Translations under genes and position numbers: made by a program | Origin: Draconibacterium orientale | GTDB lineage: Bacteria; Bacteroidota; Bacteroidia; Bacteroidales; Prolixibacteraceae | Direction: 5' to 3' | DNA length: 64,000 nt | Assembly (NCBI RefSeq): GCF_000626635.1 | Contig: NZ_CP007451.1 | Span: forward strand, 2,356,001 to 2,420,000 | Notes under the pieces: model-generated | Databases searched by the model: none | What the model was told of the DNA's origin: nothing | Seen by the model: only the letters and a program-made list of their open reading frames with translations | Part shown: piece after piece, positions 7,486 to 64,000 of the stretch | How positions within the stretch are numbered: the stretch's first letter is position 1 | How the letters are laid out: each line of letters starts with the position of its first letter

Positions 7486-7866
7486 TTTTGTTAAATATCC
7501 GGGGCGCTCCCGGTTGATTTTAATAAGATTAGTTGGAAGCGGCAAACATATACAAAAGGCGATTTTAATCCAAATTAAAAAATGCTAAAAGGTGCCATGT
7601 CGGCAGGTAAGATTATAGCCCGGGCAGACGTTTAAAAAAACAATTACTTCTATGCACTGCCACCACCGTAACCAACGATGCTGAAACGTGTCGGGGCTTT
7701 GCCCCTGTGTGCTATTAGTTGATGCAGTTAAACAATTTTACAATTTAGCAATTTAACAATTCAACAATATAATACTTCAAATTTTTCTTGACAGGAGTCA
7801 AATACTGTCACGCCTTATAGTTGTTAATACCACCCTGCTTTTTTCTTTAAACCAGATGTGTAAAAG

Positions 7867-14889: not shown

Positions 14890-15682
14890 CGTTCTGAAAT
14901 CTGAAATCGTTAATCATCATTCGACTACGCTCAGGATGACACTTTGCCTTTTGCCTTTTTACTTTAAACTTTTGCCTTGTTTTTGAACCACATAGATCAC
15001 ATCAGACACAATAGAATTTTGCCGGTTGCTTTTTGCCTACTGCCTACTCATTCACTCAATTAATCCTTAATCACTAATCCTTCCCCCGACGCTACGGTCG
15101 GGATTTCGGCAGGCAAAGCCTTCCTCAACTTTTGTCCTTTTTACTTTCTCCTTTTGCCTTGTTTTTGACCCACACAGATCACATCAGACACAATAGAATT
15201 TTGCCTACTGCCTACTCATTCACTCAATTAATCCTTAATCTCTAATCCTTCTCTTTGCCTTTTTACTTTAAACTTTTGCCTTGTTTTTGAACCACATAGA
15301 TCACAACAGACACAATAGAATTTTTGCCGGTTGTTATTGCTGTTGGCTTGTTCTTTCTTTTGCCAATTACCCCTCAATTACTCATTTACTAATTCTCTTA
15401 TTTACCCTTTAATCCTTAATCATTAATCCTTCCCCCGACGCTACGGTCGGGATTTCGGCAGGCGAAGCCTTCCTCAACTTTTGCCTTTTTACTTTAAACT
15501 TTTGCCTTGTTTTTGAACCACACAGATCACATCAGACACAATAGAATTTTGCCTACTGCCTACTCATTCACTCAATTAATCCTTAATCTCTAATCCTTCC
15601 CCGACCTACGATCCGGATTTCGACAGGCAAAGCCTTCCTCAACTTTTGTCCTTTCCACTTTTTCCTTGTATTTTTGCCGCCC
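14890..15682 (-). repeat. Mosaic intergenic repeat field, right copy
   Basis: About 800 bp without a gene between the sulfatase-fold protein and mnmA. A block CACAATAGAATTTT recurs at about 15007, 15189, 15311 and 15537. It is accompanied each time by CTACTGCCTACTCATTCA or a variant, ATCCTTAATC, the hairpin CCCGACGCTACGGTCGGG (15085, 15434, and a degenerate one near 15600) and CTTTTTACTTTAAACTTTTGCC. Near 14905-14945 it also carries AATCGTTAATCATCATTC and GACTACGCTCAGGATGAC. The whole set is the inverse complement of the 3745-4062 field. Confidence 0.88.
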
Positions 15683-16874: not shown

Positions 16875-17037
16875 GTTGAAGGACTGAAGGACTGAAGGAT
16901 TGAGGTAAAGAATGAATGCTAAAATGCTTGAATTCATCCAGCATCCAGTTGAGCGAAGCGAAATCCCGACCGGAAGCGTCGGGGCATCCAGTTTTCAACA
17001 TCCGGAATCCGTTGCGCTGTTTTTACAGACTTTATAC
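16875..17037. repeat. Short repeat cluster between mnmA and yicC
   Basis: A 9-bp tandem GAAGGACTG (three copies, the last degenerate) is followed by CATCCAGCATCCAGTTGAGC, the hairpin motif ATCCCGACCGGAAGCGTCGGG (16963-16983) and a further CATCCAG..CATCCGG pair. These pieces belong to the same intergenic families as the larger fields. No gene is present. Confidence 0.6.
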
Positions 17038-17063: not shown

Positions 17064-17939
17064 ATGATAAAATCAATGACCGGCTTTGGTAAAGCCGAAT
17101 TCGAGGTAAACAACAAAAAAATTACCATTGAAATTAAATCGCTGAACAGTAAGCAAATCGATATTAACACCCGTACCCCTGCCTTGTATCGCGAAAAAGA
17201 TATTTTAATTCGTAAGGCAATTGCCGAAAAACTGGTACGCGGAAAAGTTGATTTTAACATTTACGTGGAAAACCTGGGCGACGAAACCAATTCGAAAATA
17301 AACGAACCAATTTTAAAAGGTTATTACAATCAGTTGAGCGATGTCAGCAAACAACTTGGCCTGTCTGTAGACCACAGCACTTTGCAGGCAGCGATGCGTT
17401 TGCCCGATGTGGTAAAAACCGAGTACGAAACACTCGACGAAACAGAGTGGGAAACCATTTACAAGAATATTCTGGCTGCACTAGGCGATATTAATGATTT
17501 CCGTGCGAAAGAGGGAGAGGCACTTGAGGCCGATATTCTGGGTAATGTGGAGAACATCAGCAATTTATTGAAACAGGTTGAGCCGTTCGAAAAACAGCGT
17601 ATTGAAGCCTTGAAAGTTCGTTTGACGGACAACCTGGAAGCGCTGAAAATGATTGGTAATGTGGATGAAAACCGTTTTGAGCAGGAGCTGATTTTTTACC
17701 TGGAGAAACTGGACATTAACGAGGAGAAAGTTCGTTTGGCCAATCATTGCGAGTATTTCTTCGAAACCGCAAAACAAAATGGTGCTTCGGGTAAAAAGCT
17801 GGGTTTTATTTCGCAGGAAATTGGTCGCGAAATCAACACCATCGGTTCAAAAGCCAACGAAACCAATATTCAGCGTATCGTGGTGCAAATGAAAGACCAC
17901 TTGGAGCGCGTGAAAGAACAATTGTTAAACGTGTTGTAA
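17064..17939 (+). CDS. yicC: YicC/YloC family endoribonuclease
   Basis: 291 residues beginning MIKSMTGFGKAE, the family hallmark, and ending with the conserved DUF1732 block (SNCEYFF-like NHCEYFFETAKQNGASGKKLGFISQEIGREINTIGSK in part). Members are single-strand endoribonucleases that affect RNA turnover. yicC next to gmk is a widely conserved pair. Here the pair is split by a four-helix-bundle gene with its flanking inverted repeats. The ATG at 17064 follows a promoter element; it probably drives yicC-S23-gmk-nadD. Confidence 0.9.
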   Translation: MIKSMTGFGKAEFEVNNKKITIEIKSLNSKQIDINTRTPALYREKDILIRKAIAEKLVRGKVDFNIYVENLGDETNSKINEPILKGYYNQLSDVSKQLGLSVDHSTLQAAMRLPDVVKTEYETLDETEWETIYKNILAALGDINDFRAKEGEALEADILGNVENISNLLKQVEPFEKQRIEALKVRLTDNLEALKMIGNVDENRFEQELIFYLEKLDINEEKVRLANHCEYFFETAKQNGASGKKLGFISQEIGREINTIGSKANETNIQRIVVQMKDHLERVKEQLLNVL

Positions 17940-18003
17940 CAAGGCAAGATTAACAAGGCAAAAGGCAAAAGAAGAAAGGCAAAAGGGGGCACGAACAAAT
18001 CAA

Positions 18004-18603
18004 AAGTAGAAAGTTAAAAGGCAAAAGTAAATTTAAATAAAGTTAGCCTTATGGAAAATAACCTTCAAAAAAGAATCTTTGAATTTGTTACGGAAGTGAT
18101 ACTTTATCTGCGAACCTTGCCTGATTCACAAGAGTTTAAAATTATAAAAAATCAATTGATCAAAGCAGCGTCTTCTACCGGCGCTAATTACGAAGAGGCG
18201 CAGGCTGCATCCTCAAAAGCTGATTTTACCTACAAGACGGAAATTTCGTTAAAGGAGATGAGGGAGAGTAACTATTGGTTAAGGCTGATTCAGTCGATTA
18301 GTAAAAACTTAAATTCTAACGATGAAAAATTAAGCTACTTAATCAAAGAATCCGGAGAATTAAAATTGATTTTGGGTAGTATTGTATCCAAAACGAAAAA
18401 GAATAAATAGCCGCACTCTATTTTCTTCCTTTTCCTTTGAACTTTTGCCTTTTTACTTGAACAACCTATTTTTGCTCCCGACGCTAGCGGTCGGGATTTT
18501 GCTTCGCTCAACTTTCTACTTTGAACTTTCGACCTGAATAACTTACTTTTGCCTTTCTACTTGAATAACCTACTTTTGCCTTTTTACTTTGAACTTTCTA
18601 CTT
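18004..18603. repeat. Inverted repeats flanking the first S23 gene
   Basis: The left arm, 18004-18028, reads AGTAGAAAGTTAAAAGGCAA with a few further bases. The right arm, 18572-18603, reads as its reverse complement with a 7-nt insertion (ACTTTTGCCTTTT, then AACTTTCTACTT). Further GGCAAAAG units sit left of the gene and CTTTTGCC units right of it; the right side also has three tandem units GAATAACCTACTTTTGCC. An RNA across this locus could fold so that the S23 gene lies in the loop. Confidence 0.65.
18051..18410 (+). CDS. Four-helix-bundle protein (S23, 23S rRNA intervening-sequence type)
   Basis: 119 residues, all helical. The conserved pattern includes VTEVILYLRTLPDSQEFKI-type first helix, the turn AASSTGANYEEAQAASSKADF and the ELKLILGSIV ending. 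The family was first found encoded in intervening sequences of 23S rRNA and its biochemical role is not settled. Here it sits between yicC and gmk, separated from both by repeat-rich spacers of 111 and 233 bp. It shares fold and motif layout with the protein at 63524-63886 but is clearly divergent from it. Confidence 0.85.
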   Translation: MENNLQKRIFEFVTEVILYLRTLPDSQEFKIIKNQLIKAASSTGANYEEAQAASSKADFTYKTEISLKEMRESNYWLRLIQSISKNLNSNDEKLSYLIKESGELKLILGSIVSKTKKNK

Positions 18604-18643
18604 GAATAACCTACTTTTGCCTTTGAACTTTTTTACTTGAGCA

Positions 18644-19210
18644 ATGAAAGGAAAATTAATTATATTTTCAGCTCCATCGGGGGCTGGGAAAACTACCATC
18701 GTAAAACATTTATTACAGCAAGGTTTCGATCTTGAATTTTCAATATCGGCCACCAGCCGAGAGCCGCGTCACACCGAAACGCACGGTAAGGATTACTACT
18801 TTTTATCTGGCGAAGAGTTTTTGGCAAAAGTTGAAAACGACGAGTTTTTGGAGTGGGAAGAAGTGTATAAAGGTACCAGTTACGGAACGCTGAAAAGCGA
18901 AGTGGAACGTATTCGCGAGCAAGGCAAAAATGTGGTTTTTGATGTGGATGTTGTTGGCGGCCTGAACATTAAAAAATACTACGGCGATGAGGCGCTTGCC
19001 GTTTTTGTGCAGCCTCCTTCGGTGGAAGAATTGCGCAAACGCCTGGTTGGCCGGTCAACCGACAGCGAAGAGAAAATTGCCATGCGCGTTGCCAAAGCCG
19101 AGCACGAATTAAGTTTTGCCCCACAGTTTGATGTGGTGATTATTAACGACAAGCTCGAAGATGCTTTTGTGGAAGCCGAAAAAATTATAGCTGAATTTCT
19201 GAAGAAGTAA
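18644..19210 (+). CDS. gmk: Guanylate kinase
   Basis: 188 residues, the normal length for this enzyme, which phosphorylates GMP to GDP. The P-loop is SAPSGAGKTTI, and the GMP-binding region reads SATSREPRHTETHGKDYYF. The lid and later region RLVGRSTDSEEKIAMRVAKA is also complete. It follows the repeat-rich spacer after the S23 gene and is followed by nadD in the same direction, a usual Bacteroidota arrangement. Confidence 0.96.
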   Translation: MKGKLIIFSAPSGAGKTTIVKHLLQQGFDLEFSISATSREPRHTETHGKDYYFLSGEEFLAKVENDEFLEWEEVYKGTSYGTLKSEVERIREQGKNVVFDVDVVGGLNIKKYYGDEALAVFVQPPSVEELRKRLVGRSTDSEEKIAMRVAKAEHELSFAPQFDVVIINDKLEDAFVEAEKIIAEFLKK

Positions 19211-59657: not shown

Positions 59658-59660
59658 TTG

Positions 59661-59735
59661 ATTAACGATTGTAGATTAACGATTTTTGATTTCAGATTTT
59701 TCCTTCGAAATTCAATATTCGTTAATCATCATTCA
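59661..59735. repeat. Gene-free inverted repeat between argG and argC
   Basis: GATTAACGATT occurs twice on the left, followed by TTTGATTTCAGATTTTTCC and CGAAAT, and ATTCGTTAATCATCATTC lies on the right. The pieces match the arms around the S23 gene at 63524, but here only about 40 bp separate them and there is no ORF. Confidence 0.55.
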
Positions 59736-59741
59736 ACATTC

Positions 59742-62390: not shown

Positions 62391-63476
62391 ATGTACAAAG
62401 TAAAACAGGCAAAATTAACGCTTGAAGACGGGACGGTTTTTATGGGAAAATCCTTCGGAAGCGAAAAGTCGGTGGCCGGAGAGGTCGTTTTTTATACCGC
62501 AATGACAGGGTATCCGGAAAGTTTGACTGATCCATCTTACACAGGACAAATCCTGGTGTCGACCTACCCAATGATTGGGAATTATGGTGTTCCTTTTAAC
62601 AGGAAAGAAAACGGAATACACAAGTATTACGAATCGCACAAATTGCACATTTCCGGATTGATAATTTCTGATTATTCATTCGAATTCAGCCACTGGAACG
62701 CAGAGAAAAGTTTGAGCGACTGGCTGAAAGAATACGAAGTGCCGGGTTTGTTCGATATCGACACGAGAGCCTTAACAAAAATTTTACGTGAGAAAGGTTC
62801 GATGTTGGGGAAGATCGAATTTGAAGATGAAATTGACTTTTACGATCCGAACAAAGAAAACCTGGTAGCGGTTGCAAGTTGTAAAGAGCGCGAAGTTTAT
62901 GGCGATGGAGAGCACAAGGTAGTGTTGATTGACTGTGGAGTTAAAAACAACATTATTCGTTGTTTGCTCGATCGCGGAGCTACGGTAATTCGTGTGCCAT
63001 GGGATTACGATTTTACCCATGAAGAATTCGATGGATTGTTTATCTCGAACGGCCCGGGTGACCCGGCAAATTGCGATGTAACGGTTGAGTACATTAAAAA
63101 TGTAATTGCAGCAGAAAAGCCAATTATGGGGATTTGTTTGGGTAACCAATTGCTGGCACGTGCCGCCGGTGCAAAAACCTACAAGCTGAAATTTGGTCAC
63201 CGAAGTCACAACCAACCGGTTTTGCTGCAGGGAACAAACAAATGTTACATCACTTCGCAAAACCATGGATTTGCTGTGGCAACCGAAACATTGTCTGACG
63301 ACTGGGAACCATTGTTTACCAATGTAAATGATGGAACCAACGAAGGAATCAGGCACAAAACAAAGCCTTTCTTCTCAACGCAGTTTCATCCGGAAGCATC
63401 GAGCGGACCGGTTGATACCGAGTTTTTATTCGATGAGTTCATTAAAAATATCGTAGAATATAAAAGCCGGAACTGA
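62391..63476 (+). CDS. carA: Carbamoyl-phosphate synthase small subunit
   Basis: 361 residues. The glutaminase subunit supplies ammonia to CarB for carbamoyl phosphate, used for arginine and pyrimidines. The N-terminal domain has LEDGTVFMGKSFGS and FYTAMTGYPESLTDPSYTGQ. The class I amidotransferase domain has the nucleophile cysteine in IMGICLGNQLLARAAG and the His/Glu in TQFHPEASSGP. carB starts 488 bp downstream, separated by an S23 gene and its inverted repeats. Confidence 0.97.
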   Translation: MYKVKQAKLTLEDGTVFMGKSFGSEKSVAGEVVFYTAMTGYPESLTDPSYTGQILVSTYPMIGNYGVPFNRKENGIHKYYESHKLHISGLIISDYSFEFSHWNAEKSLSDWLKEYEVPGLFDIDTRALTKILREKGSMLGKIEFEDEIDFYDPNKENLVAVASCKEREVYGDGEHKVVLIDCGVKNNIIRCLLDRGATVIRVPWDYDFTHEEFDGLFISNGPGDPANCDVTVEYIKNVIAAEKPIMGICLGNQLLARAAGAKTYKLKFGHRSHNQPVLLQGTNKCYITSQNHGFAVATETLSDDWEPLFTNVNDGTNEGIRHKTKPFFSTQFHPEASSGPVDTEFLFDEFIKNIVEYKSRN

Positions 63477-63488
63477 TTTAAGAATATC

Positions 63489-63940
63489 GATTAACGATTT
63501 TAGATTTAAGATTGCGAGCCGAAATGAACAGATTTGAGTTAGAAGAGAGGTTGATTGTATTTGCTGCAAGGATTATTGAACTGGCAGAAAAACTGCCGAA
63601 TTCTCCAATCGGCAATCATATGAAAGGGCAAATTGTACGTTCAGGAACGTCACCTGCTCTAAATTATGGAGAAGCACAAAGCGCTGAATCGAAAAAAGAT
63701 TTTATTCATAAAATGAGCGTGTGCTTAAAAGAGCTTAGAGAAACTTTCGTTGCCATAAAAATCATAAAATATTCCAAACTTTTAACTGAAGTGGCTTTGC
63801 TGGAGGAGTGTTACGTTGAAAACAACGAATTGATTTCCATTTTTGTTAAAAGTATAGAAACAGTAAAGAAGAATAAAAGCGCATAATGATATGTTAATAA
63901 GTATTTCGGAGCGACAATCTAAAATCATCAATCGTTAATC
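63489..63940. repeat. Inverted repeats enclosing the second S23 gene
   Basis: The left arm, 63489-63525, begins GATTAACGATT, continues GATTTAAGATTG and ends CCGAAAT. The reverse complement of the right arm, 63903-63940, reads GATTAACGATT, then GATTTTAGATTG and CCGAAAT. The outer 26 bases match at 22 positions. The left arm ends on the S23 start codon. The right arm is followed by a second AATCATCAATCGTTAATC copy. Together they could form a long stem with the gene in the loop. Confidence 0.8.
63524..63886 (+). CDS. Four-helix-bundle protein (S23, 23S rRNA intervening-sequence type)
   Basis: 120 residues from ATG 63524 (MNRFELEERL); the frame extends to a TTG at 63512 that lies in the repeat arm. 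Helices contain LIVFAARIIELAEKLPNSP, the turn QIVRSGTSPALNYGEAQSAE and SKKDFIHKMSVCLKELRET, the conserved core of the family. It separates carA from carB. Together with the gene at 18051 it shows that this family recurs inside operons in this genome. The molecular role is unknown. Confidence 0.87.
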   Translation: MNRFELEERLIVFAARIIELAEKLPNSPIGNHMKGQIVRSGTSPALNYGEAQSAESKKDFIHKMSVCLKELRETFVAIKIIKYSKLLTEVALLEECYVENNELISIFVKSIETVKKNKSA

Positions 63941-63964
63941 ATCAATCGTTAATCAATAGTAGTT

Positions 63965-64000
63965 ATGATAGAAACACATATTAAAAAAGCAATTGTTCTT
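63965..64000 (+). CDS. carB: Carbamoyl-phosphate synthase large subunit, first codons
   Basis: Only twelve codons are visible, MIETHIKKAIVL, before the window ends. This resembles the start of CarB in this phylum, which continues into the ATP-grasp domain, and its place after carA supports the call. Confidence 0.75.
   Translation, partial: MIETHIKKAIVL

Follow-up and report, generated by a model that had tools for sequence, protein, structure and literature searches.

In REP/RAYT systems (REPtrons), a protein gene is flanked by inverted short repeats, and many solo copies of these repeats are found in the genome. The STRR sequences are heptanucleotide repeats of cyanobacteria. Published heptanucleotide repeats include GGGAATC of Xanthomonas, often in convergent arrangement with 70 such pairs in Xcc, and GGGGATT of Nostoc (both PMC4692102) as well as TAACTGA of the Beggiatoaceae (PMC4679880). 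Neither paper uses the term S23 in its text.

Genes of the S23 family (PF05635) are described within rRNA, where S23-type ORFs occupy several 16S and 23S insertion sites (PMC11270868). The account of the Coxiella intervening sequence (IVS) in PMC4990558 places heptameric repeats just before the S23 ORF and reports the excision of the IVS by RNase III. Other parts of the literature relate PF05635 to Avd of the diversity-generating retroelements, which it resembles (PMC10053308), and report 18 S23-type genes in cas loci (PMC3936711). No paper linking S23 genes outside rRNA to heptad arrays was found by title or abstract among the open-access papers searched.

The S23 gene between carA and carB

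The window, which is the whole stretch of 64,000 nucleotides analysed here (G000:C1:2356001-2420000), comes from a single-contig genome of 5.13 Mb. Near its end lies carA, the upstream operon mate (62391-63476, + strand, from the ORF listing), whose best matches in 18 relatives of the same genus are 84-97% identical. The start of carB (63965-64000, + strand, read from the sequence; locus L066) is cut by the window end. An earlier note had claimed that an S23 gene interrupts carA-carB, and a four-helix-bundle gene of the S23/TIGR02436 type, coding for 120 residues, is indeed present between them at 63524-63886 (+ strand). Its product matched TIGR02436 with 75 bits (cut-off 24) and PF05635 with 44.8 bits (cut-off 33.8). 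By inspection the protein carries the RxxxSxxxNxxE core as R-SGT-S-PAL-N-YG-E, and S43 and N47 are invariant across the six paralogues of its own genome; the family core is given as GxxRxxxSxxxNxxE in PMC3936711. The only sequence of a solved structure that was matched was 2rld, with five chains. The 7 carAB orthologues had a median pN/pS of 0.17 and are under purifying selection.

The flanks were scored by comparing the left flank with the reverse complement of the right flank. At carAB, the 5' array (63474-63525, + strand) consists of GATTTAA GAATATC GATTAAC GATTTTA GATTTAA GATTG and an inner CCGAAAT. The inverted 3' array (63903-63955, + strand) begins with an inner ATTTCGG and continues with AATCTAA AATCATC AATCGTT AATCATC AATCGTT AATCA. 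The complementarity between the arms 63474-63514 and 63915-63955 is 76% over 41 nt and 81% over 32 nt. The arms are extended up to the S23 start codon by the inner pair CCGAAAT (63519-63525) and ATTTCGG (63903-63909); when arms and inner pair were joined by gapped alignment, the score was 41 (37 in a second computation). The 37-bp inverted repeat described in the earlier note therefore stands with respect to its complementary arms and the inner CCGAAAT, but it is not a unique repeat, since each arm is a contiguous run of 7-bp GATTNNN units, with AATCNNN on the opposite side.

At carAB no transposase gene and no Y1 tyrosine transposase was present, and S23 is the only listed ORF of at least 60 residues between carA and carB. 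An Rfam scan of the window gave nothing at the gathering threshold. Like the rRNA IVS, the cassette holds its S23 gene in a loop closed by a terminal inverted repeat, and like the Coxiella IVS as described it has heptamers. It differs in lying between the protein genes of an operon, outside any rRNA gene, in having locus-specific arrays as arms, and in that selection for an RNA stem was not detected at S23 loci. The published heptanucleotide repeats are likewise degenerate intergenic tandem 7-bp units, which at S23 loci appear as a lag-7 peak, whereas the arrays in this analysis enclose S23 genes. Dispersed solo copies of the cassette motif (68 matches in G000, the window's genome, against 1 for the reversed pattern) are a feature in common with REP/RAYT; unlike these systems, the S23 cassette has no Y1 transposase, and unit arrays take the place of the REP palindromes.

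The genome of the window contains 7 PF05635 genes. All are flanked by short-unit repeats with a different motif at every locus, and their inverted scores were 30, 46, 35 and 41 (L001, L004, L005 and L066), 24-25 for two genes and 16 for one. The window's other S23 gene is at 18051-18410 (+ strand), between a YicC-like ORF (17064-17939) and a guanylate-kinase-like ORF (18644-19210), both named by inspection only. Its 5' array (17942-18029, + strand) is built of AAAGGCA and AAAGTAG units, and its 3' array (18428-18640, + strand), with CTTTTGCCTTTCTACTTG-type units, is longer and less regular.

Inverted arrays at S23 genes of other genomes

A profile search found PF05635 in at least 27 of 31 genomes. 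The fetched stretches yielded 118 distinct S23 genes, and the 117 with full 120-bp flanks made up the genus/order set. Some members of this set are orthologous loci, among them 7 from carAB, and some belong to other families of the order. The median inverted score was 26; in direct orientation it was 17, and mismatched pairs had a median of 16. The 99th percentile of the mismatched pairs was exceeded by 41/117 flank pairs in inverted and by 3/117 in direct orientation. A score of at least 28, a threshold chosen after the first distribution had been seen, was reached by 56/117 S23 genes and by 0/227 control genes from the same stretches, defined by the longest-ORF rule; 61 of the 117 S23 loci remained below it.

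The multi-phylum set was drawn from the best 80 of 552 relatives, 76 of which had full flanks. Here 43/76 loci scored at least 28 against 7/144 control genes (Fisher 8e-18), with a background of 13/223 mismatched pairs and 11/76 direct comparisons, and 33/76 loci stayed below 28. By record label, taken from titles that often belong to binned genomes, 31/59 Bacteroidota loci and 12/17 others of this best-80 set reached the threshold. The architecture of a gene within an inverted repeat outside rRNA, which the earlier note had seen at carAB, thus recurs at S23 genes in both sets; the initial observation is confirmed and is general.

The autocorrelation of the flanks round S23 genes peaked at lags 7 and 14, with a smaller peak at 8, and control genes showed a faint rise at 7. 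Two-sided arrays of 7- or 8-bp units were present at 64/117 S23 loci of the genus/order set and at 51/76 of the multi-phylum set (best 80 of 552), but only at 6/227 controls and at 0/19 small GIY-YIG genes (20 of 30 loci were taken and one was too short), so that such arrays are not equally frequent round unrelated genes. Other flank repeats were common at the GIY-YIG genes, inverted at 7/19 and direct at 11/19. Three simpler accounts were rejected. Chance or AT-richness is excluded by the mismatched-pair, direct-orientation and neighbouring-gene controls, a single inverted repeat carried everywhere by the variation of the motifs between loci, and a general effect of small passenger genes by the GIY-YIG genes, which have flank repeats but no two-sided 7/8-bp arrays.

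Plasmid records of S23 numbered 25, of which 23 were cyanobacterial. The loci of 19 records were read (H7, H8 and the partial matches H22-H25 were left out), and 10/19, mostly cyanobacterial, had an inverted score of at least 29: N. edaphicum (TAGGGAG), Nostoc C052 (ACAGGGA), Calothrix brevissima, Nostoc 53789c, Geminocystis, Anabaena 90, Azospirillum, Picosynechococcus, Stanieria and Leptolyngbya. The score was higher in direct orientation at 3/19 (Pseudanabaena, Gemmatirosa and Nostoc HK-01), and the flank similarity was weak or absent at 6/19 (score 14-22). Plasmid S23 genes also lay among cas genes, twice at a cas6-cas4 junction and once between cas10 and cmr3, much as they do in carAB or beside pdxB. 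For the cas-associated S23 genes listed in PMC3936711 the proposed cassette offers a simpler reading. A tblastn search with one S23 protein as query gave no S23 in phages, and distant blastn with a single S23 gene gave none in E. coli.

Between co-directional neighbours, S23 was in sense orientation in 64/64 cases of the multi-phylum set (best 80 of 552) and in 99/99 of the genus. In a control of small ORFs, in which the S23 genes are included, 264/270 were sense. Since small ORFs are mostly sense as well, the orientation fits an operon gene and alone says little on mobility.

Among the loci scoring at least 28, the best period was 7 in 30 and 8 in 13 of the 43 multi-phylum loci (best-80 set), and 7 in 34, 8 in 12 and another value in 10 of the 56 genus/order loci. 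The period labels were taken from the autocorrelation of both flanks rather than from the inverted score, and placed on trees of the S23 protein. With 72 leaves, 8 changes of unit length were required, as compared with a mean of 17 and a minimum of 13 in 200 shuffles; a FastTree run gave 7 changes. On a larger tree of 141 leaves there were 17 changes against 36.9, with a minimum of 33 in 100 shuffles. An all-octad clade of 12 joined Flavobacterium, Aquimarina, Nitrospirae, KSB1, Syntrophaceae and another Bacteroidetes record (SH-aLRT 85, from few columns); four of its members score below 28 (17-25), and five are near-identical Flavobacterium proteins. The similarity of the motifs followed that of the proteins weakly (Spearman 0.13 outside shared loci; reached in 0/300 Mantel permutations). 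A motif dictated by the protein sequence was rejected because of this weak correlation, which also leaves sequence-specific binding unsupported. With the unit length tracking the tree and the motif tracking the protein weakly, a constraint on spacing fits better than one on letters.

Filled and empty junctions

Among 19 genomes of the same genus, the cassette was present between carA and carB in 7 and absent in 12. An insertion into the operon, as the earlier note had supposed, is borne out by the empty carA-carB spacers of 26-27 bp in G002, G003, G006, G008 and G013. The arms were visible in the alignment of all 7 filled genomes, with scores of 32-41 except for G007 with 23, so the gene was not seen in carAB without its repeat. 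The filled allele does not include the sequence of the empty spacer, and therefore it is incapable of precise excision in its present form. No target-site duplication was seen by eye when filled and empty carAB alleles were compared.

In a tree of carA and carB, the filled G009 is sister to the empty G002 with a support of 100, and the empty G013 groups with the filled G012 (54). The filled G017/G004 are set apart from the rest by the empty G003 and G006/G008, where the deepest fork involved has a support of 77. By S23 distances, G009, G012 and G005 stand apart from G000, G007, G017 and G004, a grouping that, judged by eye, departs from the carAB tree. Together, the S23 grouping and the carAB tree indicate a locus history of repeated gain, loss or exchange. 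As a separate observation, the carAB S23 genes of G005 and G012 look mutually closer than their carA and carB, a hint of an exchange of the cassette or the locus.

In G016, two cassettes that are 87% identical over 542 bp flank a pdxB-like gene on either side. The duplicate spans about 120 bp of the 5' array and 46 bp of the 3' array, and the flanks beyond are unrelated. No S23 was found in the pdxB-gnd neighbourhood of 16 relatives by tblastn with the G016 S23 as query. The pdxB-gnd gap is 6-14 bp in 10/16 relatives and longer in the others. On the other side, mocA and pdxB are directly adjacent in 11/16; because another stretch or gene lies between them in the rest, this is the weaker comparison. 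Among the longer pdxB-gnd gaps, those of G015, G001 and G017 hold hairpins that contain no gene, and that of G004 holds a GIY-YIG-like ORF. The hairpins of G015 (L316) and G001 (L318) are of the ACCACATAGACACATAG type, at the place where G016 has an S23 cassette.

Possible functions of the arrays

We consider it rather probable that these loci are DNA cassettes resident in operons, whose arrays serve both as recognition sites of S23 and as element ends for copying. The proposal starts from the architecture and its generality, the sense orientation, the empty sites, one joint duplication, the purifying selection and the distribution of the unit length on the tree, all of which were observed. 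From these we infer the binding of S23 to the arrays and the mode of movement of the cassette. The S23 gene appears to be read off the transcript of the host operon. It is enclosed on both sides by inverted arrays of degenerate 7- or 8-bp units, as a rule some 3-7 per arm but at times many more, and gene and arrays form one unit that is jointly gained, lost and copied. The arrays are most likely double-stranded-DNA recognition sites for an S23 oligomer, with a constrained geometry (unit length and inverted polarity) and a drifting sequence. They would also mark the ends of the element, which may be copied into new intergenic sites by enzymes of the host or by other enzymes acting in trans. Several observations count against a cassette. 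No target-site duplication was seen, S23 has to our knowledge no catalytic domain, the loci below 28 are numerous in both sets (33/76 and 61/117), the multi-phylum comparison has a background, and the solo motif is in excess. The motif also follows the protein weakly, the plasmid loci include 3/19 with direct and 6/19 with weak or absent flank similarity, small ORFs are mostly sense anyway, and the filled carAB allele is incapable of precise excision.

The arms might instead be a stem in the polycistronic mRNA which is cut by RNase III like an rRNA IVS, so that the insert is tolerated. In the predicted MFE fold of the 511-nt mRNA the carAB arms pair (z -2.9; 1/100 shuffles was as stable), S23 is always sense between co-directional neighbours, and for the S23-bearing IVS of Coxiella, with its heptamers before the ORF, excision by RNase III is reported (PMC4990558). 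The similarity of the arms in register is also somewhat above that after permutation of the units in one arm, which lowered the score modestly (mean percentile 0.65; 146/193 loci; 0.5 corresponds to no register), and the arms share their motif more than their register. A stem under selection would give an excess of G-U-compatible over A-C mismatches on the sense strand; the counts were 109 vs 109 at 130 loci and 92 vs 88 at 99 loci, and with this symmetry selection for an RNA stem has no support. In addition, mismatches between the arms of the carAB orthologues fall on the variable positions within units (by eye), and a stem has no need for a period of 7 or 8. From the wobble symmetry and the weak register, a symmetric role of the arrays at the DNA level is preferred and seems fairly likely, whereas an element acting at the RNA level is doubtful. 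That the arms persist as an RNA stem, as the earlier note had considered, was not supported, which leaves its interpretation of the carAB element partly supported.

TRAP binds spaced NAG triplets, and in analogy a ring of S23 could bind the units in its own leader or operator for autoregulation, with the gene being immobile and spread by recombination only. The 5' arms are G-rich (G>C in 87 and C>G in 8 of 99, hence 87/95 informative arms) and many contain NAG once per unit (by eye), the unit length tracks the S23 protein tree, and the S23 of X. campestris is described as a homopentamer (PMC4990558). This would leave the mirrored downstream array and the two cassettes at neighbouring G016 junctions unexplained, and we regard it as unlikely. 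Less likely still is that heptad arrays arise genome-wide by slippage and that S23 genes merely insert into their hairpins. Solo GATTNNN hairpins do exist. One with this motif of carAB and a loop without a gene lies at 59659-59737 (no strand assigned; DNA fold z -2.2), and the 68 motif matches in G000 far exceed the number of S23 genes carrying that motif. The motif count reaches 51 in G002, which has no S23 in carAB, and the motif is weakly tied to the protein. Inverted pairs of 7/8-bp arrays are rare away from S23, however. All heptad-type pairs less than 700 bp apart in the window (3 at score 30; 2 at score 24 when the rule for the period was tightened) are at its two S23 genes, and 400 kb sampled elsewhere in G000, containing one S23 gene whose weak arms escaped detection, gave 0 and 1 (an octad pair), respectively. 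Moreover, the unit length tracks the S23 tree, the G016 arrays were duplicated together with the gene, and the short empty junctions of carAB and pdxB-gnd leave no room for arrays.

Returning to the operon-resident cassette, the observations point to S23 genes within repeat-array ends as a little-noticed kind of mobile gene cassette. This would join two open puzzles, the role of the S23 protein and the occurrence of heptanucleotide arrays between the genes of cyanobacteria, Bacteroidota and others. We tentatively extend the proposal, with less confidence, to bacteria in general. S23 proteins might be the cognate factors of heptad and octad arrays across Bacteroidota, Cyanobacteria and others. 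The arrays would be the ends of small mobile cassettes, coded by geometry while their sequence drifts, and would be read by a four-helix-bundle ring; the rRNA IVS and the unexplained heptanucleotide repeats might be two visible faces of such cassettes.

Arrays were also recorded apart from S23 genes. A heptad inverted pair in G007 (L292:14408-14907) without S23 encloses a repeat-rich stretch with TTATCACC repeats, and one heptad-type pair was found in the S23-less G026. The array density was 0 in 260 kb as compared with 15 in 604 kb, a comparison that rests on 2 S23-less genomes. AATC arrays were more numerous in carriers of the carAB S23 (Mann-Whitney p 0.01); since numbers are also high in G002 and G013, which are relatives without it, kinship may explain the excess. 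In the window, further intergenic solo heptad or octad arrays with other motifs lie at 14898-14972, 16877-16903 and 7732-7768. Long intergenic tracts of repeated modules with no evident genes were seen at L008 (G000:1656962-1657470) and L023-L029; they contain AATC arrays, a GAGATGACAG module and a GGCGCTCACGCACCGGGCT module. The small GIY-YIG genes of relatives (L345-L366) often have long direct flank repeats, some of which resemble 3' parts of tRNAs by eye (..CTGGTTCGAGTCC..), or GTCATCCTGAGCG-type repeats; in G008 there are six copies at a spacing of about 446 bp.
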